IMG/VR virus record: IMGVR_UViG_3300025112_000177
Coordinates: 1-24,832 of that record
Strand: one strand, 5' to 3'
DNA length: 24,832 nucleotides
Source: a virus
This document shows, in pieces, positions 1,162 through 24,079 of this stretch; within the stretch, counting starts at the first letter, position 1, and every line of letters begins with the position of its first letter. Both the position numbers and the translations under genes were made by a program. The notes under the pieces were generated by a model. The model was not told the DNA's origin. It ran no database searches and saw only the letters and a program-made list of their open reading frames with translations.

Positions 1162-3036
1162 ATGTCTATTGTAGAAAAACTGACAGAAGGAATCGTTCGA
1201 CGAGATCTCTCACAGGAATCCAGCGCTCTTGTCTCCAAGTGGGAAAAGACTGGTCTTCTTGAGGGTCTAGGCGGCGACCACCTTCGAAACGGGATGGCTT
1301 CTTTGCTTGAAAACCAAGCCAAAGAGCTACTCCGAGAAGGATCCTCGATGTCCAGTGGCGATGTTGAAGGCTTTGCAGCCGTCGCATTCCCCCTCGTTCG
1401 TCGCGTATTCGGCAATTTAATTGCCAATGATCTAGTAAGTGTTCAGCCCATGAGTTTACCCTCTGGCCTGATCTTCTTCCTAGATTTCGTTGTTTCTGGC
1501 GATCTAGGCGCAGGAAAGGACAGCGGAGATGGTTCCGCTCGACTCGGCTATCATGCCGCAGATCGATCCCTTTATGGCGGCAACGTTGTAGGCGCCGAGC
1601 TTACTGGCGGTGTAGACCTGGGTAATCAGTTCGCTGATAAGGGTCCGTATAACCTTAATAATGGTTATGCTTCACCGACCGGTTCGAATGCTCGCACATT
1701 TGCTCAGCGAAGCGCTCCGGATGTACTCCGCCCGCTTGTTTCTGGTACGGTTGGAGATACTACCAAGACCACCAACGACCTTTCTGGTCGCGGTAAGCAC
1801 ACTCTTGACGAGCTTATTCAGTTTGATCCGGATTTATTGGCCCTTTCGGGCACAGCAAACGTTTTCGTTTTCGAAGCGGTACTTACCGGCCTTACGGCAT
1901 CTGGTGATACGCTGAATAAACAAGACCTAATTGCTATTCAGGTTTCCGGCGTTGATGGAGGCAGGGGCATTTTCGATGGTACTGACGACAGCGTGCCGGC
2001 ACATCTCGTTCGTAGATTAACGCGATATGGCTCCGGTTCTCAAAATGGAGCGCTTAACGATCAGGCATCTGAGGCTGTTATCATGGTCGCTGCATCTTTC
2101 GATGGTGCTGCTTCCGCTGTACAGCTTAGCGAATCTGTCGGTGGTGTTTCAGCTGGTTCTTTGGGAACTTCCGAGACCTTTACTTGGGAATACCCGATTG
2201 ATGATACCTTTAATGCAGGCGGGGCTATCGGCTCTGTTGTTGGAGCAAGCCCATGGGGTCTTGAGAACAATACTCAGATTCCTGAGATCGACATCAAGGT
2301 CGATTCGGTGGCCGTCACGGCGATCACTAAGAAGCTGAAGGCCAAGTGGACTCCGGAATTGGGACAGGATCTTAATGCCTATCACAATTTGGATGCCGAA
2401 GTCGAGCTCACTCAGATCCTTTCTGAGCAAATTGCGCTCGAAATTGACCGTGAGATTCTTGAAGATCTGGTTCGAGGCGCTACGACCGTGCGTTATTGGT
2501 CCCGTGCTCCCGGTAAGTTCGTAAACCGTGAGACTGGTGTCGAGGTTGGTGCAGATACAGTTGCTCCCGACTTCACTGGTAATGTAAGTGAATGGTATGA
2601 GACTCTCATTGAGACAATCAATGATGTCTCGGCTCAGATCCACCGTAAGACTCTACGTGGTGCTGCTAACTTTGTGGTGTGCTCACCAGAAGTTGCTAAC
2701 ATCCTTGAGTTTACCGCTGGTTTCCGCGCGAATGTTACTGTTGACAGTGATAGAGGCGATGCTGGTTCGGTTAAGGTTGGTAGCCTTTCTAAGAAGTTCG
2801 ACATTTATGTCGATCCTTACTTCCTGCGTGGTTTGATCCTCGTTGGACGTAGAGGAAGCTCCTTCCTGGAGTCTGGTTATGTTTATGCACCTTATGTGCC
2901 ACTCCAGACTACCCCCACGATCTTTGGTGTTGAAGACTTCGTGCCCCGCAAGGGAGTCATGACCCGATATGCCAAGAAGATGGTTCGACCCGACATGTAC
3001 GGGATCGTTTTTGTCCAGGATATGATGGTAGGTTAA
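1162..3036 (+). CDS. 23: Major capsid protein, gp23-like (HK97 fold)
   Basis: 624 aa, the main shell protein of the head. Several blocks match T4 gp23 as remembered. The N-terminal propeptide-like segment contains LLEGLGGDHL (32-41) and ENQAKE (50-55). Around residues 79-98, VRRVFGNLIANDLVSVQPM parallels the T4 motif ending FDICGVQPM. Near residue 391, KLKAKWTPELGQDL, followed by Asp-Ala-Glu-Val-Glu-Leu and EIDREI, parallels the T4 helix region. Near the C-terminus YAPYVPL and FVPRKGVMTRYAKKM match closely. L-R-E at 57-59 is a possible prohead protease site (inference from the I/L-x-E rule). It is about 100 aa longer than T4 gp23, with the extra length between about residues 107 and 390. A strong SD (AAGGAGG, 1144-1150) and AAG/GAG-rich codon use fit very high expression. 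A terminator follows. Confidence 0.95.
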   Translation: MSIVEKLTEGIVRRDLSQESSALVSKWEKTGLLEGLGGDHLRNGMASLLENQAKELLREGSSMSSGDVEGFAAVAFPLVRRVFGNLIANDLVSVQPMSLPSGLIFFLDFVVSGDLGAGKDSGDGSARLGYHAADRSLYGGNVVGAELTGGVDLGNQFADKGPYNLNNGYASPTGSNARTFAQRSAPDVLRPLVSGTVGDTTKTTNDLSGRGKHTLDELIQFDPDLLALSGTANVFVFEAVLTGLTASGDTLNKQDLIAIQVSGVDGGRGIFDGTDDSVPAHLVRRLTRYGSGSQNGALNDQASEAVIMVAASFDGAASAVQLSESVGGVSAGSLGTSETFTWEYPIDDTFNAGGAIGSVVGASPWGLENNTQIPEIDIKVDSVAVTAITKKLKAKWTPELGQDLNAYHNLDAEVELTQILSEQIALEIDREILEDLVRGATTVRYWSRAPGKFVNRETGVEVGADTVAPDFTGNVSEWYETLIETINDVSAQIHRKTLRGAANFVVCSPEVANILEFTAGFRANVTVDSDRGDAGSVKVGSLSKKFDIYVDPYFLRGLILVGRRGSSFLESGYVYAPYVPLQTTPTIFGVEDFVPRKGVMTRYAKKMVRPDMYGIVFVQDMMVG

Positions 3037-3060
3037 TTCTCCATCTGGGTGAATAAATGT

Positions 3061-3098
3061 GAAAGCCTCGGCTCATAGAGCCGGGGCTTTCTATTTAT
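3061..3098 (+). terminator. Intrinsic terminator after the capsid gene
   Basis: GAAAGCCTCGGCT (3061-3073) pairs with AGCCGGGGCTTTC (3079-3091), giving a 13-bp stem with one G-T wobble. A further C-G pair closes a tiny loop, and the stem is followed by the T-rich TATTTAT. It lies 25 bases after the capsid stop codon. It would end or reduce transcription after the head module and protect the 3' end of the abundant capsid mRNA. Confidence 0.85.
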
Positions 3099-3105
3099 AA
3101 TAGTT

Positions 3106-3125
3106 ATACTACTTAAAATGAGGAG
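3106..3125 (+). promoter_or_regulatory. Candidate late promoter motif ahead of the gp13-like gene
   Basis: ATACTACTTAAAATGAGGAG combines the recurring ATACTAnTTAA element with the SD (AGGAG, 3121-3125) of the next gene. It directly follows the terminator, where a new promoter is expected. The function is inferred. Confidence 0.35.
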
Positions 3126-3134
3126 TATTATAAT

Positions 3135-4400
3135 ATGGCGCTTCCTACACTTAGTCCGGCTTCAACCACAAATAACAATATATTACCGATAACTGGCACT
3201 TTAGGAAATATTTCTTCTTCGTTGCCGTTTGGCGTATACGTATTAAATTCTTTTTTCCAATCAGGGTCTGTAGATCAGGTTGCCTATACATATAAAAAAT
3301 TGGGCGGAGACGTATTAGATATTGAGCTAACAGAGGGAAACGTTTATGCAGCCTACGAAGAAGCTTGTTTGGAATATTCTTATATAGTTAATGTACACCA
3401 AGCAAAAAATTCTCTTTCCAGTTTTCTTGGACACACCACTGCTTCGTTTACTCACGATGGCCAAGTCATTTCTGGAGACGACCTGGCTGATTTAAATATT
3501 GAGTTAAGATATCCAAAATATGATTATGGACACGTTAGGAGGGTGTCCGACCACGCCATTACAGAGGCCGGCCTGGGGGGCACAAAAAACATATATTCAG
3601 GTTCTTTTGATACTGTAACCGATCAGCAAGATTATGATATACAAACAATAATATCAGAATCTGCTGCCACCGAGACTGGTCAAGAATATTATGGGAAAGT
3701 TGGCAAGAAGAGAATTATAATTCGAAAAGTATTTTATAAATCACCGAACGCTATGTGGCGCTTTTACGGGTATTATGGCGGGTTCAGCGTTGTTGGCAAC
3801 TTGCGTACGTATGGACAGTATGCAGATGATTCAACATTTGATATTGTTCCCGTTTGGCAGAATAAACTTCAAGCAATGAACTATGAGGATGCGCTTAACA
3901 CCAGGGTTTCTCATTGGTCATATGAAATTAAGAACAACAAACTAAGAATTTTCCCTCCACCAAAGGATGCAAGCCCAACAAAGTTTTGGTTCTATTTTAC
4001 GGTCGATGAAGACCCATGGGATGAAACAGATTCTGGTGTAGATACAGGAGTTTTGGGCATCAACAACATGAACACACTTCCATTTCAAAATATTGATTAT
4101 AACAGTATTAACTCGATTGGAAAACAATGGATCCGCCGCTTTGCGCTGGCTCTTTCAAAAGAAATGCTGGGACAAATTCGTGGTAAATTTAATACAGTGC
4201 CAATTCCAGGGGAATCGGTGACGCTAAACCATGCCGAATTGCTTTCTCAAGCGAAAGCGGAACAAGACGCATTGAGAGAGGAGCTTAAGACAACATTTGA
4301 TGAACTGACATATGTGAACCTTTCCACGAAGGATTCAGAAATGTCTGACAATGCAGATAAACTATTGGCCGATGTCCCCGGCGGCATCTATGTAGGGTAG
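3135..4400 (+). CDS. 13: Neck protein, gp13-like
   Basis: 421 aa, probably one of the two neck proteins that close the filled head and provide the tail docking site. Two blocks match T4 gp13 as remembered. Near the N-terminus, YKKLGGDVLDIELTEGNVY (about residues 52-71) is followed by AYEEACLEY. Near the C-terminus, QWIRRFALALSKEMLGQIRG is followed by an AEQDALREEL motif; T4 has the equivalent WATALAKEL and EALREEL. It is about 110 aa longer than T4 gp13 (309 aa), with extra sequence in the middle, rich in Tyr and Asp. The start ATG has an AGGAG SD nine bases upstream. It ends four bases before the gp14-like gene, forming a neck operon with it and the gp15-like gene. Confidence 0.85.
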   Translation: MALPTLSPASTTNNNILPITGTLGNISSSLPFGVYVLNSFFQSGSVDQVAYTYKKLGGDVLDIELTEGNVYAAYEEACLEYSYIVNVHQAKNSLSSFLGHTTASFTHDGQVISGDDLADLNIELRYPKYDYGHVRRVSDHAITEAGLGGTKNIYSGSFDTVTDQQDYDIQTIISESAATETGQEYYGKVGKKRIIIRKVFYKSPNAMWRFYGYYGGFSVVGNLRTYGQYADDSTFDIVPVWQNKLQAMNYEDALNTRVSHWSYEIKNNKLRIFPPPKDASPTKFWFYFTVDEDPWDETDSGVDTGVLGINNMNTLPFQNIDYNSINSIGKQWIRRFALALSKEMLGQIRGKFNTVPIPGESVTLNHAELLSQAKAEQDALREELKTTFDELTYVNLSTKDSEMSDNADKLLADVPGGIYVG

Positions 4401-9488: not shown

Positions 9489-10049
9489 ATGGCATTTTGG
9501 AATTTAGCGTCTTCGGAGCCCAAGAGACAACATAGATTTTTGGTTAATTTTAGTAACTTGGTTACAGCGGATGGTGCAAGCTTTGAAGACTATCTTGCAA
9601 AAACAGTGCTTACGCCGGGATATACAATCTCTACAACGCCCCACAGGTTTTTGGGCAATGAATATCATTACCCGGGCACCGTTACATGGGATGAAGTAAC
9701 CGTCACTATCGTTAACTCAGTCAATCCGGATGGAAACGCACTCTTATATGATGCTCTCTCGAAATCAGGATATCTCAGACCCGATCAGCAATCTGCAGCT
9801 TTGCAGGGTGCTCAACAGCAGGTTGGCACAGTTAATAAAGTGAATGCTCATGATGCCATTGGAGATGTGATTATTCGTCAATTGGATGGCGAAGGTACCC
9901 TTATTGGCAAATGGATTTTAAATAATGCCTTTATAACTGGTGCAAAATTTGGTACACTGGATTATACGGGCGATGCTCTTTTGAATGTGGATATTACAAT
10001 TCGTTACGATTGGGCAACATATGAATCAAGCCCGCCGCTAGATATTTAA
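9489..10049 (+). CDS. 19: Tail tube protein, gp19-like
   Basis: 186 aa against 163 in T4 gp19. It would polymerise as stacked rings forming the inner tube through which DNA passes. The N-terminus (SSEPKRQHRFLVNFSNL) is typical of T4-like tube proteins. The central YPGTVTWDEVTVTIVNSVNP (about residues 59-78) and the C-terminal ILNNAFITGAKFGTLDYTGD, DITIRYDWA match the family pattern. It directly follows the sheath gene, as in T4. SD GAGGAG lies 11 bases before the ATG. The next gene begins 21 bases downstream. Confidence 0.92.
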   Translation: MAFWNLASSEPKRQHRFLVNFSNLVTADGASFEDYLAKTVLTPGYTISTTPHRFLGNEYHYPGTVTWDEVTVTIVNSVNPDGNALLYDALSKSGYLRPDQQSAALQGAQQQVGTVNKVNAHDAIGDVIIRQLDGEGTLIGKWILNNAFITGAKFGTLDYTGDALLNVDITIRYDWATYESSPPLDI

Positions 10050-10070: not shown

Positions 10071-10928
10071 GTGTCAAGAAACAATGAAGACCGCCTAGGC
10101 CTAGGCGCCCCAGCACCGGATGTTTCCCCCCCTCCCTTAGTCACAAGTCAACAAAACGAAGATCTCTTTTCGTTTGTTACGCCAACAGAATTTATTGATC
10201 TTCCGAGTCAAGGGAGGTATTATGCCGAAGGGCACCCCCTCCACGGTAAAAGTTCTGTAGAAATCAAACACATGACTGCAAAAGAAGAGGATATTTTAAC
10301 CTCTGAAAGTCTTTTGCGAAAAGGAATTGCTATCGATAGACTATTACAGTCACTAATAGTCGACAAATCAATTAAAATAGATGAACTTTTAGTTGGTGAC
10401 AAAAATGCTCTAATCATTGGAGCGCGCGCAACGGGCTATGGGCCCCATTATGAAACAAGAGTGGGGTGCCCCGTCTGTACCACTCAGCAATCAGTCAATT
10501 TCGATCTAGACAACCTTACTGTACATCATTCAGAAGTGCCCGAAGAGGTGCACGCATCTGAAAATAATACCTATTTTGTTGTTTTGCCCAAATGTGGACT
10601 TCAAGTGGAGTTGCGCCTTTTGACGGGCGCCCAAGAAAAGGCATATTCAGAAGGAACTGAAAGAAAAAGAAAACAAAAGCTCCCTTCCTCGATCGCTACC
10701 GATCTTTTAAGGCTAATGGTGGTTTCTGTTAATGGTAGAACAGATGCCGCCACTATTAATAAATTTTTAGAAGTATTGCCAATTCAGGATTCTGTGCATA
10801 TTAAATCAGTTTATGAAAAAATTAGTCCCGATGTCGACCTAACTCACGATTTTATTTGTGTATCGTGTAATCACGATGGGAGGGTTGCAGTTCCATTGAC
10901 TGCAGGCTTTTTTTGGCCTAAGCGATGA
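10071..10928 (+). CDS. 26: gp26-like tail/baseplate assembly protein (unshifted product)
   Basis: 285 aa, starting at GTG with SD TGAGG five bases upstream. It resembles the T4 baseplate-protein family that includes gp26. Visible family-like segments are FIDLPSQGRYYAEGHPLHG (about 41-59), IKHMTAKEEDILTSESLL, and a C-terminal helical region. Two Cys-x2-Cys knuckles (C133/C136 and C263/C266) could bind zinc. The reading frame ends in a run of seven T (10908-10914) followed by TGG CCT AAG CGA TGA. Its position between tube and tape measure is that of tail-assembly chaperones in many phages. A hub-assembly role, as named in T4, and a tape-measure chaperone role are both possible. Confidence 0.72.
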   Translation: MSRNNEDRLGLGAPAPDVSPPPLVTSQQNEDLFSFVTPTEFIDLPSQGRYYAEGHPLHGKSSVEIKHMTAKEEDILTSESLLRKGIAIDRLLQSLIVDKSIKIDELLVGDKNALIIGARATGYGPHYETRVGCPVCTTQQSVNFDLDNLTVHHSEVPEEVHASENNTYFVVLPKCGLQVELRLLTGAQEKAYSEGTERKRKQKLPSSIATDLLRLMVVSVNGRTDAATINKFLEVLPIQDSVHIKSVYEKISPDVDLTHDFICVSCNHDGRVAVPLTAGFFWPKR

Positions 10929-11112
10929 GTATCAAGAATCCATATATGAAGAGTTGTTTATATTGAAACACCACGGCGGTTGGAGTTTTTTTGAGGCGTA
11001 TAATCTTCCGATACAATTACGTCATTGGTTTGTTGAGCGTCTAATTAAAGAATTTGAAAATATAAGAGCGGCACGCGAAAAGAATTCTTCTCATTATAAC
11101 CTTGGTGGTTAA
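10900..11112 (+). CDS. 3' frameshift extension of the gp26-like protein (chaperone GT-like)
   Basis: An open frame, +1 relative to the upstream gene, runs from after a TGA at 10897 to TAA at 11110-11112. It has no ATG or GTG; only TTG codons at 10954 and 10963 could start it, without a good SD. A +1 or -2 slip on T7 (10908-10914) joins it to the gp26-like protein and adds about 65 residues, giving a product of about 346 aa. The extension contains SDEYQESIYEELF and HHGGWSFFEAYNLPIQLRHW, followed by a charged helix. This resembles short proteins found next to the gp26-like gene in other T4-like phages. A -1 slip would stop at once (TTG GCC TAA). Known parallels are lambda gpG/GT, P2 E/E' and the Mu -2 shift. 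Confidence 0.6.
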   Translation: MQAFFGLSDEYQESIYEELFILKHHGGWSFFEAYNLPIQLRHWFVERLIKEFENIRAAREKNSSHYNLGG

Positions 11113-11163: not shown

Positions 11164-11538
11164 ATGCCGCATGAACAAGAACAATTAATTATTAATTTAA
11201 ATAAGAATCCATCGCTTTTAAATGAGTCGTTCATAGCTCAATTTGGCGGCCTCGTGAAATTATTACTTCGGCATATGTTTGGCGAGGGGGCGGGAAGTCC
11301 AGGCCGCCACAAGGTTGAAGAATCGTCCGACGGCCAGCCAGAACCACAGGTTAAAATTGTGGGTACCCCCTCGCAAGTAGAAACTTTTATGAAAACTCTT
11401 CGCAGAGAAAAAAATTATATGAAAGACTACATAGAACACGGCCTTGGCGCGCCCGAGACTTTTGAATCTCGGCATGCTTTAAATCGGGCAGTGGAAGAGT
11501 TTGAGAATAAAACTGGCATTTTGTGGCCAATTAAGTAG
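11164..11538 (+). CDS. Small conserved T4-like protein of unknown function, before the tape measure
   Basis: 124 aa. The N-terminal half is helical (INLNKNPSLLNESFIAQFGG, then a Leu-rich segment). A short Gly/Ser/Pro and charged linker follows at about residues 40-60. The C-terminal half contains VKIVGTPSQVETFMKTL, KNYMKDYIEHGL, ESRHALNRAVEEFENKTG and ends LWPIK. I recognise this GTPSQV...Y...FE..TG..WP pattern as recurring in small proteins of T4-like phages, but I know of no function for it. The position just before the tape measure suggests a tail role. SD GAGGG at 11153-11157 may be occluded by the leader structure. It ends 11 bases before the tape-measure start. Confidence 0.65.
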   Translation: MPHEQEQLIINLNKNPSLLNESFIAQFGGLVKLLLRHMFGEGAGSPGRHKVEESSDGQPEPQVKIVGTPSQVETFMKTLRREKNYMKDYIEHGLGAPETFESRHALNRAVEEFENKTGILWPIK

Positions 11539-11549: not shown

Positions 11550-13745
11550 ATGAGCTTATGGAATAAAATATATTGGTCTCCTGAAGGCGGCGGCGGCGGT
11601 TCCGACAAGCCGCCGGAAGACGACGTTAAAACAATTCAGATGTCGGTTCGGGAGATCGCGAACCAGGCAGAAGCCACCCGAGACTTGGTTGCCGCCCAGG
11701 AGGGAGAACGCGACGTTCAGGGCGAATTAGACGTGATGCGCCTGGACCGGGTAAAGGTCCTCAAAGATGAAATTTCGCTTCTTGAGAGAAAAATTGCTTT
11801 CACCACCGAGATAAACAAGAAAATTGATTATCAACTTGAGATGGACGAAAAGGCGCTTCAGCTAGAAATTGAATCAACACTGCAATCGGAAGAATTCCTC
11901 AAGCTGTCGGAGAAGCTGCAGGAAGCCCGCAAAGCCGAGCTCGCCGACAAAGAAGAAAGGTTAGTTTACCAGAGAGAGGGCATTGAGGTTGGTAAAGAAC
12001 TAGCTGAAACCATGTTCGGCCTCGCTACCGCCTCTAAACAGGCAGACTTTTATGCTCGACTTCACGCCGGCGGAATCAAAGGGGTGGCGACTGGATTTAA
12101 AGGCCTTATTACCAGAAATAGTGCCCTCAATTCTCTCTCTGCCAAGGGAGCTGAACTAGCATTAGGATTTGCCGGCGCCGTGATCAAGCTTGCCGCGGCT
12201 CAAGACACAGCGCGGTCCCAATTTATGAAATCAACCGGGGCTGGGATGGAATATGGACAAACAATTTCCACTATTCAACGCGCCACGGCATTGTATGGTG
12301 TCGATAGTGCAGAAGCCGGCCAGGCCGTTACAGATCTATATACGAGTTTTTCTCAATTTAGTCAATTAAGCGAAACATCACAAAGAGATATAGGCGAGAC
12401 AGTTTCACTCTTAGCGGAACTCGGCGTATCGAGTTCTGTGTCAGCCAAAAATTTAGATATTGCAACTCGCTCTCTGGGGCTGAATGCCACCGAGGCGGAA
12501 GAATTGCTACTTGAGATTAAAGCAACTTCTGATGCTATTGGGCTCCCCGCTAGCAAACTGGCAGAAGATTTTTCGGCTTCGGCCCCCGTTTTGGCCAAAT
12601 ATGGTAGAGATATGATGAGTGTATTTGAAGGGCTCGCAAAACACTCTAAGCAGACGGGCATTGAGATGGGTCAACTTCTTAATATTACTGGCAAATTTGA
12701 TACTTTTGAAGATTCTGCCCGGGCAGTGGGCCGCTTGAATGCGATTCTTGGCGGTCCGTATTTGAATTCAATTGATCTTCTTAACGCAACAGATGAAGAG
12801 CGTATATCTATTCTACAAAGATTGACGAATGTGGCTGGTTTACAATTTGATGAACTAAATCGATTTGAAAGAATGGCAATTGCTGACGCGCTAGGTGTTA
12901 GCGTGGATGAGGCAAATAGAATATTTGGCGCCACGACCGCTCAATTTGAGAAACAAAGATTGGCTCAAAAGAAATTGGCCGATCAGGCGGCCGAAGCCCA
13001 ATCGGTCATAGACCAATTAAAAGCAGCATTTAATGCCATGCTGGTTGATATGCAGCCTCTAATTGAAGAACGCATTTTACCCATGGTGCGAGGCTTCCGG
13101 AGTATGGTAGAAAGTAGCGGCCAAGCTGCAGCAGAAATTTATGGATTGACAAAGGCAATTATATACTTCTCGACATATGCCGGCGCGGCCATGATCGCTG
13201 GTGGCGTAATCGGGTTGATTGCGACCAAAGGCGCCGCAGCGGCGTGGGCAGTTCCTATGATAGTAAGCGGCGCCAAAATGTTCGGCGTGGGCATTGCCGG
13301 CCATATGGCCATGGACGAAATGGAAGATGCCGCTGCTCAGGGTATGGCAGGAGTTCAACGAACGCAAGCGGCAGTGGGAGGACCGACCTCAAGGCAGCCG
13401 CTCAACATACCGCGTGTCAGCACTGTCGTTCCACAGTCAGCGCTTCAGGCGGCCGCACAGCCCCCCCACAGCCCTGTTACCTCTATGGGCCCTGGCGGTG
13501 TCTCGCAACCCGCACAAATGCCAACCCCGGGCGCCCCAGCCTCGCAGGCAGGCATTACAGGCCTCCCCCAGAAAGACTGGGACCTTTTGACGCAGAGCGT
13601 CGCAGCGTCCAACAGAGTGGCCGCGGCCGTCGAAAAATCCAGCAAACAACCCGCCACGATAGTGCTTGGTGATCGAAACTTCACGGCTCACGTGGTTAAG
13701 CATGGCACGAACAAGTTAAGACACGTGACACAGGGTGTAGGATGA
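11550..13745 (+). CDS. Tail length tape-measure protein, gp29-like role
   Basis: 731 aa. It would set tail length inside the growing tube and pass into the host at infection. A Gly-run N-terminus (EGGGGGSDKPPEDD) is followed by long charged coiled coil (about residues 25-150). Ala-rich amphipathic helices come next, including FAGAVIKLAAAQ near 210. A hydrophobic pair of segments spans about 530-585 (AIIYFSTYAGAAMIAGGVIG, then an Ala-rich stretch and VPMIVSGAKMFGVGIAG), likely membrane-active. The tail end is Pro/Gln/Ala-rich (about 600-690) and closes with ATIVLGDRNFTAHVVKHG, a typical tape-measure ending. Size, composition and place after the chaperone-like gene support the call; direct identity to T4 gp29 (590 aa) is not obvious. 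By the usual 1.5 angstrom per residue, the tail would be about 110 nm. Confidence 0.82.
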   Translation: MSLWNKIYWSPEGGGGGSDKPPEDDVKTIQMSVREIANQAEATRDLVAAQEGERDVQGELDVMRLDRVKVLKDEISLLERKIAFTTEINKKIDYQLEMDEKALQLEIESTLQSEEFLKLSEKLQEARKAELADKEERLVYQREGIEVGKELAETMFGLATASKQADFYARLHAGGIKGVATGFKGLITRNSALNSLSAKGAELALGFAGAVIKLAAAQDTARSQFMKSTGAGMEYGQTISTIQRATALYGVDSAEAGQAVTDLYTSFSQFSQLSETSQRDIGETVSLLAELGVSSSVSAKNLDIATRSLGLNATEAEELLLEIKATSDAIGLPASKLAEDFSASAPVLAKYGRDMMSVFEGLAKHSKQTGIEMGQLLNITGKFDTFEDSARAVGRLNAILGGPYLNSIDLLNATDEERISILQRLTNVAGLQFDELNRFERMAIADALGVSVDEANRIFGATTAQFEKQRLAQKKLADQAAEAQSVIDQLKAAFNAMLVDMQPLIEERILPMVRGFRSMVESSGQAAAEIYGLTKAIIYFSTYAGAAMIAGGVIGLIATKGAAAAWAVPMIVSGAKMFGVGIAGHMAMDEMEDAAAQGMAGVQRTQAAVGGPTSRQPLNIPRVSTVVPQSALQAAAQPPHSPVTSMGPGGVSQPAQMPTPGAPASQAGITGLPQKDWDLLTQSVAASNRVAAAVEKSSKQPATIVLGDRNFTAHVVKHGTNKLRHVTQGVG

Positions 13746-21186: not shown

Positions 21187-22380
21187 TTGTTTTTTCAACC
21201 ATTAGATAACAAAAATCAATGTATTGGATATTATGCTGAGGGAAATTTTTATTACTATCTACCTGATGCGTCATTAACAAAAACATGGGATTACAGCACG
21301 AGTTTGAAAAATTACCAAATTGAATTTGGGCGTGTATATTGTAATGGCAAAAATTTAACTGAGGTGTGCCCTCCGCAATATAAGTCTATGTGGGAGAGAA
21401 TTAAAACAAAATTTGAAGCATTTAGAAAATCATTTATATTGTCCAAGTTAAATTTAGAAGAGCTGTGCCTTTATGAGATCCTACCAGAACCATTCCTTTT
21501 CGAATTTTATGATCTTAAAAATGAAATCACCAAGCATGTTTTTGAAACTTATCCTAGGCCTCAAAATCATGATGATATGACCGATGTCCTAAAACTGATT
21601 GGTGACATAAGACAACAACCATTGAGAATCAATTTAAGTGCGATAAAACATAAATTGGGCTCTTTACAGGGTAAAAATTTTGCTGGCCGTATTCAAAAAA
21701 TTAAAAAGATTTGTGACTATAATCCGTGGGGCACCATTACCGGCCGTCTGGCCGGGGTGCCCAACACCTTCCCCATATTGACGTTAAACAAGGAATTTCG
21801 AGGATGTATTTTTCCACAAAATGATTGGTTTTTGGAACTAGATTACAATGCGGCCGAAGTCCGGACCCTGTTGGCCCTCTCTGGGGAATCACAGCCAGAG
21901 CAAGACATTCATGAATGGAATATTAAAAATATTTATGATGGAAATTTGACACGAGAAGAGGCCAAGAAGAAAATATTTGCATGGCTATATTCAAAGAGGG
22001 CGAACAAGCGCGCCCAAAGATTTTATAACAAAGAGCTGGTTCTTGAAAAATATTGGGATGGCCACGACATTGTAACAGAGTTCAAAAGAGAAATAAAAAA
22101 TGTTGACAATCACCACGCCTTGAATTATATTATACAAAGCACAACGAGCGATCTGGTATTAGCAAAGGCGGTTCAGATCAATGATAAACTTAAAGAACAA
22201 AAGAGCAATATCGCATTCATGCTTCACGATTCGATTGTTATCGATTTAAAAGATGAAGATAGATACCTTATTCCAGATCTTATGAAAAGCTTTAGTGAAA
22301 CTAAATTTGGTAAATATAAAGTAAATATATCCGTGGGCAAAACCTTTGGCGAGATGAAAAGGTTAAATTACAATGGCTAA
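21187..22380 (+). CDS. Family A DNA polymerase, polymerase domain only
   Basis: 397 aa, template-directed DNA synthesis. The first 165 residues are poorly conserved and may be thumb. NPWGTITGRLAG precedes motif A, DYNAAEVRTLLAL (catalytic D219). Motif B is REEAKKKIFAWLYS: R256, K260, F264 and Y268 correspond to R518, K522, Y526 and Y530 of T7 polymerase. NHHALNYIIQSTTSDLV is the following conserved helix. Motif C is LHDSIVID with catalytic D348 and Ser replacing the usual Glu. There is no 3'-5' exonuclease domain and no 5' nuclease. T4 itself uses a family B enzyme; a PolA split into separate exonuclease and polymerase genes is known, as I recall, in Rhodothermus phage RM378. The start is TTG with SD AGGGAGGA (21176-21183). 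Confidence 0.93.
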   Translation: MFFQPLDNKNQCIGYYAEGNFYYYLPDASLTKTWDYSTSLKNYQIEFGRVYCNGKNLTEVCPPQYKSMWERIKTKFEAFRKSFILSKLNLEELCLYEILPEPFLFEFYDLKNEITKHVFETYPRPQNHDDMTDVLKLIGDIRQQPLRINLSAIKHKLGSLQGKNFAGRIQKIKKICDYNPWGTITGRLAGVPNTFPILTLNKEFRGCIFPQNDWFLELDYNAAEVRTLLALSGESQPEQDIHEWNIKNIYDGNLTREEAKKKIFAWLYSKRANKRAQRFYNKELVLEKYWDGHDIVTEFKREIKNVDNHHALNYIIQSTTSDLVLAKAVQINDKLKEQKSNIAFMLHDSIVIDLKDEDRYLIPDLMKSFSETKFGKYKVNISVGKTFGEMKRLNYNG

Positions 22381-22417
22381 AAAACATTGCAATATTTTTG
22401 ATTGGGCAGGGGAATGA
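22373..22417 (+). CDS. Possible 14-codon leader peptide
   Basis: ATG 22373 opens MAKKHCNIFDWAGE and stops at TGA 22415-22417. The ATG overlaps the last codons of the polymerase gene, and its stop overlaps the next gene's start as ATGA. A weak SD (AAAAGG, 22357-22362) lies ten bases upstream. It could bring ribosomes to the next start codon, which has an SD too close to use well. Too short to prove from composition. Confidence 0.3.
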   Translation: MAKKHCNIFDWAGE

Positions 22418-23271
22418 ATATAATAGGTCTTGGGAGCGCCGGCTGCGCAATTGCAAATTGTTTTTCTAAATTTCCACAATATAGTATTTATAAAATAGAT
22501 ACCGGAATCAAGGGGCCCGGCTGTTTTAATATTCCAAAACAGAAAGGACACCAACAGTACGAAGAAAACTACCCCTCTTTCGCGAAGCAATTTAAGAAAA
22601 TTCATGGAGAAAGCATTTTTATATTGGCCGGCGCCGGCGCGATAACCGGGTGTTGCTTGAGAATATTACAGGAGCTATCTCATAATCCGACTTCCATTTT
22701 ATATGTGCGCCCCGATATACAGCTTTTAAGTGAACTAGAAGCCAAGCAAGAGAGAATAGTTTATAATGTTCTTCAAGAGTATGCGCGCTCCGGACTTGTG
22801 GAAAGAATTTATTTGATTTCAAATTTACAGATGCAAGAGGTGCTTGGTGATATTTCCATTATGGAATATTATGATGCCATTAATCAGGCGATTGTTAACA
22901 CGTTTCATATGATAACTGTATTTAATCGGTCGGAGGCTGTTTTGGGCACCTTCACTCAGCCTGCGGAAATTTCTAGGATATCAACCGTGGGGGTTTTGGA
23001 CCTAGAAAATGGCGAAGAAAAATGGTTTTTTGACTTGCAATTACCACGTGATGTGGTATACTATTATGGTATCAATGAGGAAGAGTTGAAGACAAACGAG
23101 AAGCTTTTCAAGAACATCACAAGCTTTGTCAAAGACAAAGTAGAAGACAATCTTAATGTTTCTTATGGTGTATATAAAACCAACTATGAACAAAAATATT
23201 GTTATTGCATTAAGCATTCTTCTGTGGTACAATCATATATAGATATTTTAGACGATCAGGATATTGGCTGA
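22414..23271 (+). CDS. Divergent tubulin/FtsZ-like protein
   Basis: 285 aa from ATG 22414; TTG 22402 is an alternative but has no SD. The N-terminus, MNIIGLGSAGCAIANCF, parallels the first nucleotide-binding loop of FtsZ (IKVIGVGGGGxNA). SIFILAGAGAITGCCLRIL (about residues 69-87) parallels the FtsZ signature FIAAGMGGGTGTGAAPV. It is followed by ILYVRPD where FtsZ has VVTKPF, then a helix, VERIYLISN (FtsZ: VDxxIVIxN), MEYYDAINQAIVN, and EISRISTVG where FtsZ has the DFADV...GxA region. The catalytic NxDxxD loop is not evident, so GTP hydrolysis may be altered. Phage tubulins (PhuZ, TubZ) are known in jumbo phages and plasmids. A Rossmann-type nucleotide-binding protein is the main alternative. 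Confidence 0.6.
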   Translation: MNIIGLGSAGCAIANCFSKFPQYSIYKIDTGIKGPGCFNIPKQKGHQQYEENYPSFAKQFKKIHGESIFILAGAGAITGCCLRILQELSHNPTSILYVRPDIQLLSELEAKQERIVYNVLQEYARSGLVERIYLISNLQMQEVLGDISIMEYYDAINQAIVNTFHMITVFNRSEAVLGTFTQPAEISRISTVGVLDLENGEEKWFFDLQLPRDVVYYYGINEEELKTNEKLFKNITSFVKDKVEDNLNVSYGVYKTNYEQKYCYCIKHSSVVQSYIDILDDQDIG

Positions 23272-23302: not shown

Positions 23303-24079
23303 ATGGGTATTAATGTAGAAAAGATGCGAGCAAAGCTCGCTAACGTTCGCGGCGAAGGCGGCGATAGGGACACCTTCTGGCGTCCCAACGATGGGGAGCA
23401 GAGCATTCGAATTGTTCCGACTTCCGATGGGGACCCTTTCAAGGAGAAGTGGTTCCATTATAATTTGGCAACGAATCCAGGATTTTTATGTCCTAAGCGC
23501 AATTTTGGAGAAGAGTGCCCCGTATGTGACTTTGCTTCACAGCTGTGGCGCGAAGGCGTTGACAATAACGATGAGGAAAGTAAGAAGCTTGCCAAGAGTC
23601 TTTTTGTTCGAGCGCGCTTCTTCTCCCCCGTGTTGGTTCGCGGTGAGGAAGATAAGGGAGTCCGTATCTGGGGCTATGGTAAGACTGCGTATGAGAACCT
23701 TCTTACTCTTGTTTTGAACCCCGAGTATGGAGACATTACCGATCCCGAAACCGGTACCGATTTGACGATGGTGTATGGCAAGCCTCCAGGCGCCAGCTTC
23801 CCGCAGACGAAGCTTACGCCGAGGCGGCGCAGTTCTGAACTATGCGAGGATATGACCTCCGAAAAGTGCACAGAACTGCTTGAGTCTATCCCCGATTTTG
23901 ATACTCTTTTTGAGCGCAAGACATTTAATGACGTAAGCGCCATGTTGGACGCCTTTGTTAATGGTGGTGTTGAAGATCCGGAAACGGTTTCTTCGGAGAC
24001 TAAGAAGTATAACGAAAGCAACGCTAGTGAAGAGACGAACGCTGTTGATGCTGCGTTCGCAGAGCTGGGCGCCCTGTAA
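23303..24079 (+). CDS. 32: Single-stranded DNA-binding protein, gp32-like
   Basis: 258 aa (T4 gp32: 301). It would coat single strands in replication and recombination and work with UvsX. The basic N-terminus (MGINVEKMRAKLANVR) fits the cooperativity segment. SIRIVPTSDGDPFKEKWFHY leads into a zinc site, H52-x10-C63-x8-C72-x2-C75, close to the H-x12-C-x9-C-x2-C of T4 gp32. Next come aromatic and basic strands (ARFFSPVLV, GVRIWGYGKTAYENLL, DPETGTDLTMVYGKPPG). The C-terminal part is acidic (residues about 225-258), as in proteins that recruit partners through the tail. AAG and GAG dominate Lys and Glu codons, as in the capsid gene, fitting high expression. SD AAGGA at 23291-23295. Confidence 0.93.
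   Translation: MGINVEKMRAKLANVRGEGGDRDTFWRPNDGEQSIRIVPTSDGDPFKEKWFHYNLATNPGFLCPKRNFGEECPVCDFASQLWREGVDNNDEESKKLAKSLFVRARFFSPVLVRGEEDKGVRIWGYGKTAYENLLTLVLNPEYGDITDPETGTDLTMVYGKPPGASFPQTKLTPRRRSSELCEDMTSEKCTELLESIPDFDTLFERKTFNDVSAMLDAFVNGGVEDPETVSSETKKYNESNASEETNAVDAAFAELGAL

Follow-up and report, generated by a model that had tools for sequence, protein, structure and literature searches.

The gp26-like gene of the window (the whole stretch of 24,832 nucleotides analysed here, from IMG/VR virus record IMGVR_UViG_3300025112_000177) is in our reading a tail assembly chaperone gene that is decoded in two ways, as a short form and as a longer form reached by a +1 frameshift; we give this reading a probability of about 0.86. 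The gene has two overlapping frames that meet at a conserved site, at which coding selection passes from the gp26 frame to the +1 frame, and it is related to other systems that carry the PF12322 domain.

Arrangement of the two frames

The gp26-like protein is encoded on the plus strand at positions 10071–10928, with GTG as the start codon. Its zero-frame product of 285 amino acids, the short or G-like form, contains zinc-ribbon cysteines and matches PF12322 (T4_baseplate; the gp26/gp51 family) with 47.7 bits (E value 2e-12), above the curated Pfam cut-off of 24.5, as well as phrog_150 (baseplate hub; E value 3e-15). Structures were predicted with AF2/AlphaFold for this protein (pLDDT 91) and for a T4-type gp51. 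The zero frame terminates at TGA 10926–10928, just after a run of seven T residues (10908–10914). The shift site, TTT TTT TGG (10908–10916, plus strand), is near-invariant or present in few variants in all +1 relatives. Past the Trp codon the zero frame has a short tail (P K R stop; 10917–10928, plus strand) that varies between relatives, its stop lying 3–6 codons beyond Phe-Phe.

The +1 frame is open across the T-run, from 10900 to 11109 (70 codons; translation LQAFFGLSDEYQESIYEELFILKHHGGWSFFEAYNLPIQLRHWFVERLIKEFENIRAAREKNSSHYNLGG), and ends with TAA at 11110–11112. The C-terminal extension encoded downstream of the site comprises 65 codons plus the stop (10915–11112, plus strand), as indicated by the open frame, the relatives and the coding signal in the +1 frame. 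The long, GT-like product is predicted to have about 346 amino acids. Sequences of relatives share 42–87% identity with the extension of the window, from FFGL on. The conserved core of this C-terminal domain (YEELFILKHHGGWSFFEAYNLPIQLRHWFVERLIKEFE; 10945–11058, plus strand) aligns by hhalign with the C-domains of jumbo phages and has a weak match to DUF6760 (PF20546; E value 0.0042, 17.6 bits, below the cut-off of 27; 2.7e-4 in a single-record search). The +1 frame includes neither ATG nor GTG. It has two TTG codons (10954 and 10963), both past the conserved FFGLSDEY block, and the only Shine-Dalgarno (SD) candidate for the first of them, GAAGAG, directly abuts that codon. A -1 slip in the window would read TTT TTG GCC TAA, an immediate stop. 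The first-pass annotation had described a gp26-like frame ending just after the T-run, a protein-like +1 frame of 65 codons without a usable start, and a stop at once upon a -1 slip, all of which agree with these results.

The two frames lie between the gene for the tail tube protein (9489–10049, plus strand; phrog_4542, tail tube, E value 1e-22) and a candidate tape measure gene (11550–13745, plus strand), which is named from its position and length only and has no family match. In the Flavobacterium phage immuto, the gene at the corresponding position is annotated as tail tape measure. The earlier placement of the frames ahead of the tape measure gene holds in that they are upstream of the candidate, yet one further small ORF (11164–11538, plus strand; no family match of note in Pfam or PHROGs) intervenes.

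The capsid gene of the window phage is Gp23, and the phage accordingly falls within the T4 superfamily, broadly defined. Elsewhere in the window, positions 21187–22380 match the Family A DNA polymerases (PF00476; E value 4e-15), the best stretch covering the C-terminal part of the profile only, and a gene for a gp32-like single-strand binding protein (23303–24079) is located downstream. An ORF of 289 amino acids (22402–23271; no Pfam match) contains a glycine-rich segment, FILAGAGAITG, that by eye resembles a tubulin/FtsZ-type nucleotide loop.

Conservation of the frame relation

IMG/VR was scanned separately with the gp26 sequence and with the downstream frame, giving two sets of loci that come partly from common contigs, and a third set was collected with gp26 of a Flavobacterium phage as the query. 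In all 164 loci of the first two sets for which both parts could be scored, and in all 81 scorable loci of the third, the C-domain lies in +1, these counts referring to loci fetched by similarity (the best 80 per scan, overlapping between scans) and not to a random sample. The loci collapse to 122 gp26 clusters (at most 85% similarity). The same frame relation is found in the isolated phages Mel-JY01 (Microcystis), immuto (Flavobacterium), SP-15 (Bacillus), LIS04, GXN1, and RM378 (Rhodothermus). A genome scan with the window protein returned a single MAG contig, and one with the GXN1 protein returned no match.

The results from the selection analysis, based on 110 distinct contexts of the marine group, indicate that the frame under coding constraint changes at the site. 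Upstream of it, 59% of the single-base codon differences are synonymous in the gp26 frame, versus 9–18% in the other frames; after the slip, 73% are synonymous in the +1 frame, versus 17–19% in the other two. The third positions of gp26 vary freely up to the last codon before the site, while the nine bases of the site itself are near-invariant (entropy near 0), and the conserved block FGLxxEY starts at the slip site. The comparative evidence thus favors the programmed frameshift at the T-run that was initially proposed, with a site that is one of few variants and with a +1 relation of the two frames throughout.

The first-pass annotation had also named, as observations that would speak against such a shift, an independent 3' gene or a simple fusion of the frames in relatives. 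On both counts the outcome favors the shift: the near relatives of the +1 group have no conserved start for the 3' frame, and none has gp26 and the 3' frame simply fused; fused ORFs were found at two distant contractile injection loci and a separate gp51 gene in T4, as described below.

Relatives with the C-terminal domain in the -1 frame

In the jumbo phages 121Q, RaK2, GAP32, Munch, XaC1, XacN1, SCTP-2, Phosso, Atu_ph07, Vibrio 2.275, a PA5oct-like phage, and RAS14, as well as in RL38J1, the C-domain is located in the -1 frame. The gp26 genes of the jumbo phages and the cyanophages resemble that of the window in the protein, in the Phe-Phe codon pair and in the out-of-frame C-domain, but the domain is in -1 behind the canonical heptamer T_TTT_TTY, whereas that of the window is in +1. 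The Phe-Phe position reads T_TTT_TTC, T_TTT_TTT or T_TTT_TTG in the jumbo phages and RL38J1. In the cyanophages it reads T_TTT_TTC in 52 of 52 distinct contexts, with four different preceding codons, each ending in T (17 clusters; naive P 2e-6). The sequences of Mendera, ValKK3 and Syn9 agree with the -1 arrangement.

Based on profile comparison, the +1 C-domain is related to the C-domains of the jumbo phages (hhalign probability 94%, E value 9e-8), with probabilities of 86–95% against the jumbo and SP-15 sets; the controls with reversed sequences gave E values above 0.02. The small ORFs annotated behind gp26, such as gp51 of the cyanophages and various hypothetical proteins, are probably truncated pieces of the C-domain product.

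Salmonella phage Marshall (Ackermannviridae; L361:2250–2480) and Vibrio phage D510 (L363:2160–2400) have a C-domain-like stretch in the -1 frame with no T_TTT_TTY, and both were excluded from the shift claim. In D510 the stop and start overlap as TAATG.

T4 gp26 and gp51 and the contractile injection systems

Both gp26 and gp51 of T4 match PF12322, as does the window protein. In the T4 alignment, gp26 stops near EFFELL and gp51 extends about 46 residues further, and this extension matches the cyanophage C-domain (hhalign probability 88.5%, E value 2.7e-6), which in turn matches the jumbo set (92%). A direct hhalign comparison of the +1 C-domain with T4 gp51 gave no significant match, so that the link passes through the cyanophages. 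T4 gp51 consists of a gp26-type domain that continues at its C-terminus into a stretch related to the frameshifted domain. Unlike in the window, the short and long forms of T4 derive from two separate paralogous genes, with no frameshift. In Acinetobacter phage Stupor (MN662249; L276:1–96 and 1678–3145), gp26, gp51 and gp28 are annotated as tape measure protein assembly chaperones.

A third arrangement occurs in some bacterial contractile injection systems, where both domains of the window are found beside sheath and tube genes in one in-frame ORF, with no shift. This ORF of 251 amino acids, with PF12322 and DUF6760 in a single frame, was identified in two genomes belonging to the same phylum as a Flavobacteriales MAG (L374:4977–5732 and L375:4074–4829), at loci with genes for sheath, gp19 tube, Pvc16 and AAA proteins. 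One of the two loci matches DUF6760 with 28.7 bits, above the cut-off, and the other is just under it; in the L374 ORF the Phe-Phe position is kept (QSFFML). The gp26-type part and the C-domain would accordingly belong together as one protein, which could arise by the predicted shift, from a second gene (in T4) or from an in-frame fusion. At another sheath and tube locus (L376:640–1194, minus strand), a short CPQC protein (123 amino acids, no Pfam hit) is followed by DUF6760 in -1; the junction TCG GGG GAA TCA TAG is possibly another frameshift, on a G-run.

A tree of 45 gp26 rows places the 18 with the +1 arrangement in a single clade (support 84/70). Mapped onto it, the five states (+1, -1, two-gene, no-heptamer or fused) require four changes, the minimum possible. 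The branches of RM378 and RL38J1 are long. On this unrooted tree, a -1 ancestor is the simplest reading.

Predicted function of the two products

The two products would act on the tape measure protein as do those of lambda G/GT. By analogy with lambda gpG/gpGT, the tape measure protein would be coated by many short and few long copies, the latter recruiting tail-tube subunits through their extra domain. A chaperone role is indirectly suggested by the position of the gene, by gp51 of T4, which is needed for assembly and is absent from the particle (PMC3004832), by the T4 review in which gp26 and gp51 are listed as hub assembly chaperones (PMC3004832), and by one GenBank record in which both proteins bear the name 'tape measure protein assembly chaperone'. 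Searches with Pfam, PHROGs and PDB folds recovered no tail-chaperone family at significance. With Foldseek no significant match to the PDB was obtained, the HK97 tail assembly chaperone (PDB: 2ob9) having the highest probability among the listed matches (E value 2.4).

An unlikely alternative, although the most probable of those considered, accepts the frameshift but takes the product for a structural protein of the hub or tail that carries an optional extension, and not for a chaperone. The family name, baseplate hub, is in keeping with this, as are the older genetics which place gp26 in the T4 hub (PMC3004832), and frameshifted extensions are known on structural proteins, namely the T3 capsid and those of Listeria phage PSA (PMC5009743). 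Against it stand the behavior of gp51, the long paralogue, in T4 assembly together with the listing of both proteins as chaperones, and the location of the gene between tube and tape measure, which is that of tail assembly chaperones.

Shift site and direction of the shift

Among the 122 clusters, the site is TTTTTTTGG in 95, TTTCTTTGG in 15, TTCTTTTGG in five and TTTCTATGG in two, with five singletons. Every listed site lets tRNA-Phe on UUU re-pair one base forward with UUU or UUC (UUY), and the codon that re-pairs is necessarily the second of the pair at TTCTTTTGG and the first at TTTCTATGG. From these sequences, we read the shift as a +1 movement of the P-site tRNA-Phe, which could occur at either codon of the Phe-Phe pair. 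In the window, most ribosomes would terminate at 10926–10928 and release the short form. In a smaller fraction, in which tRNA-Phe sits on UUU in the P site while the A site presents UGG, the tRNA would move one base forward, from UUU to UUU, re-pairing from 10911–10913 to 10912–10914, with GGC at 10915 as the next codon; the +1 frame would then be read for 65 codons to give the long form with its extra helical domain. Both products are thus expected to be made, the long form as the minority, and the predicted peptide spanning the joint in the window is VAVPLTAGFFGLSDEYQ.

The first-pass annotation had left +1 and -2 slippage side by side. A -2 frameshift, as in phage Mu, would lead to the same downstream frame with one extra residue; the T7 sites alone would permit it, and such a slip is known in a tail-assembly gene (PMC5009743). 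However, at TTCTTTTGG, TTTCTTTGG and TTTCTATGG, a -2 slip would put tRNA-Phe or tRNA-Leu on non-cognate codons (UCU, UUC), while +1 re-pairing of UUU to UUY is always possible instead. These sites in relatives, which keep the +1 frame without T7, decide for +1, and we regard a -2 slip as quite improbable.

Little probability is likewise left for translation of the C-domain alone, either by ribosomes that reinitiate once gp26 has terminated or through initiation at TTG or another non-ATG codon. In the cyanophages, the zero-frame stop is closely followed by a -1-frame ATG, from which gp51 is annotated, and reinitiation is therefore possible for these phages; in some jumbo phages too, a -1-frame ATG follows or overlaps the stop, and some +1 loci have ATG codons inside the +1 frame. 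The +1 group, however, has no conserved start, and 37 of 175 distinct loci have no ATG, GTG or TTG at all in the +1 frame ahead of the conserved LP motif, while selection on this frame starts directly at the slip site. In RaK2, GAP32, XaC1, Munch, and RAS14, the zero-frame stop is located some codons beyond the slip and no start codon of the -1 frame is nearby, so that reinitiation is weak as an explanation there.

The chance that RNA polymerase slips on the T7, giving mRNAs with a U inserted or deleted, is very small. The T7 form predominates among the sites, and slippage on poly-T is possible, but it needs the run, and about a fifth of the +1 clusters are without T7 and keep the arrangement; TTTCTTTGG, TTCTTTTGG and TTTCTATGG argue against it as they do against a -2 slip. 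A sequencing error or a decayed gene in the window contig, to which a homopolymer at the junction (a classic error site) might point, is refuted by the presence of the arrangement in more than 100 clusters and in the isolated phages Mel-JY01, immuto, SP-15, LIS04, and RM378.

In the 116 clusters whose first codon is TTT, T never precedes the site, although T makes up 34% of the third positions there (naive P 1e-21, a value that ignores kinship between clusters). Thus T_TTT_TTT is avoided; this heptamer would invite a -1 shift, for which the window has an immediate stop. T does occur before the site when the first codon is TTC, as in two of the five TTCTTTTGG contexts.

A search downstream of the +1 sites found no conserved RNA structure, and SD-like 4-mers upstream of the site are in weak excess (12/63 versus 1–8/63 elsewhere). 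The UGG codon was set aside as proof of a slow A site because TGG follows in any case from the needed T and the conserved Gly of the +1 frame. In prfB constructs in E. coli, UUU_U reportedly supports +1 shifting less strongly than CUU_U does (PMC5009743).

Relation to known frameshifts and significance

Frameshifting in genes for tail assembly chaperones is a known phenomenon. That of lambda gpG/gpGT was reportedly described by Xu, Hendrix and Duda in 2004. Like the window, lambda has the gene pair ahead of the tape measure gene, a short protein and a long one to which frameshifting adds a small C-terminal domain, and a downstream frame without its own start. Lambda shifts by -1, whereas the shift in the window is +1 at UUU_UGG, and the upstream protein of the window is longer than gpG and has a zinc ribbon and PF12322; the likeness seen in this analysis is one of arrangement, with no sequence or significant fold match found. 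Frameshifts of -1, -2 and +1 exist in tail assembly chaperone genes, and according to a 2016 review the G/GT frameshift is widely conserved among phages with long tails, 'except T4' (PMC5009743). In the myovirus HSTV-2, a tail gene unrelated to that of the window probably undergoes a +1 shift (PMC5009743). The prfB gene, also unrelated, resembles the window in its +1 shift on CUU_U or rarely UUU_U (PMC5009743); it differs in having a stop codon in the A site (CUU_UGA) and an SD-like stimulator, where the window has UGG and no clear stimulator.

Searches of the published open-access literature turned up no description of a frameshift in gp26 or gp51. This fits the earlier statement that none is known to have been described for gp26-like proteins, although one phage annotation already gives T4-type gp26 and gp51 the chaperone name quoted above. 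Within the open-access literature the family, the +1 signal and the switch of direction appear to be new. More broadly, we consider it fairly likely that PF12322 represents an unrecognised short-plus-long tail chaperone of the T4 superfamily, in which an older phage state with a -1 shift was switched once to +1 at the same Phe-Phe in a large, mostly environmental clade, while T4-type phages turned to duplication (genes 26 and 51) and some injection systems to a fused ORF.

If this is true, the apparent exception of T4 would end, and there would be one family in which the direction of frameshifting was switched at a fixed site. The role of two much-cited T4 'hub' proteins would change, gp26 corresponding to the short form and gp51 to the long form, and small hypothetical ORFs in many phages and some injection systems (annotated as gp51, DUF6760 and others) would be reinterpreted. 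The family would also offer a natural experiment, a Phe-Phe site tuned to +1 in one clade and to -1 in others, with the wrong heptamer avoided, and this contrast may help to show how the direction of ribosomal frameshifting is determined.
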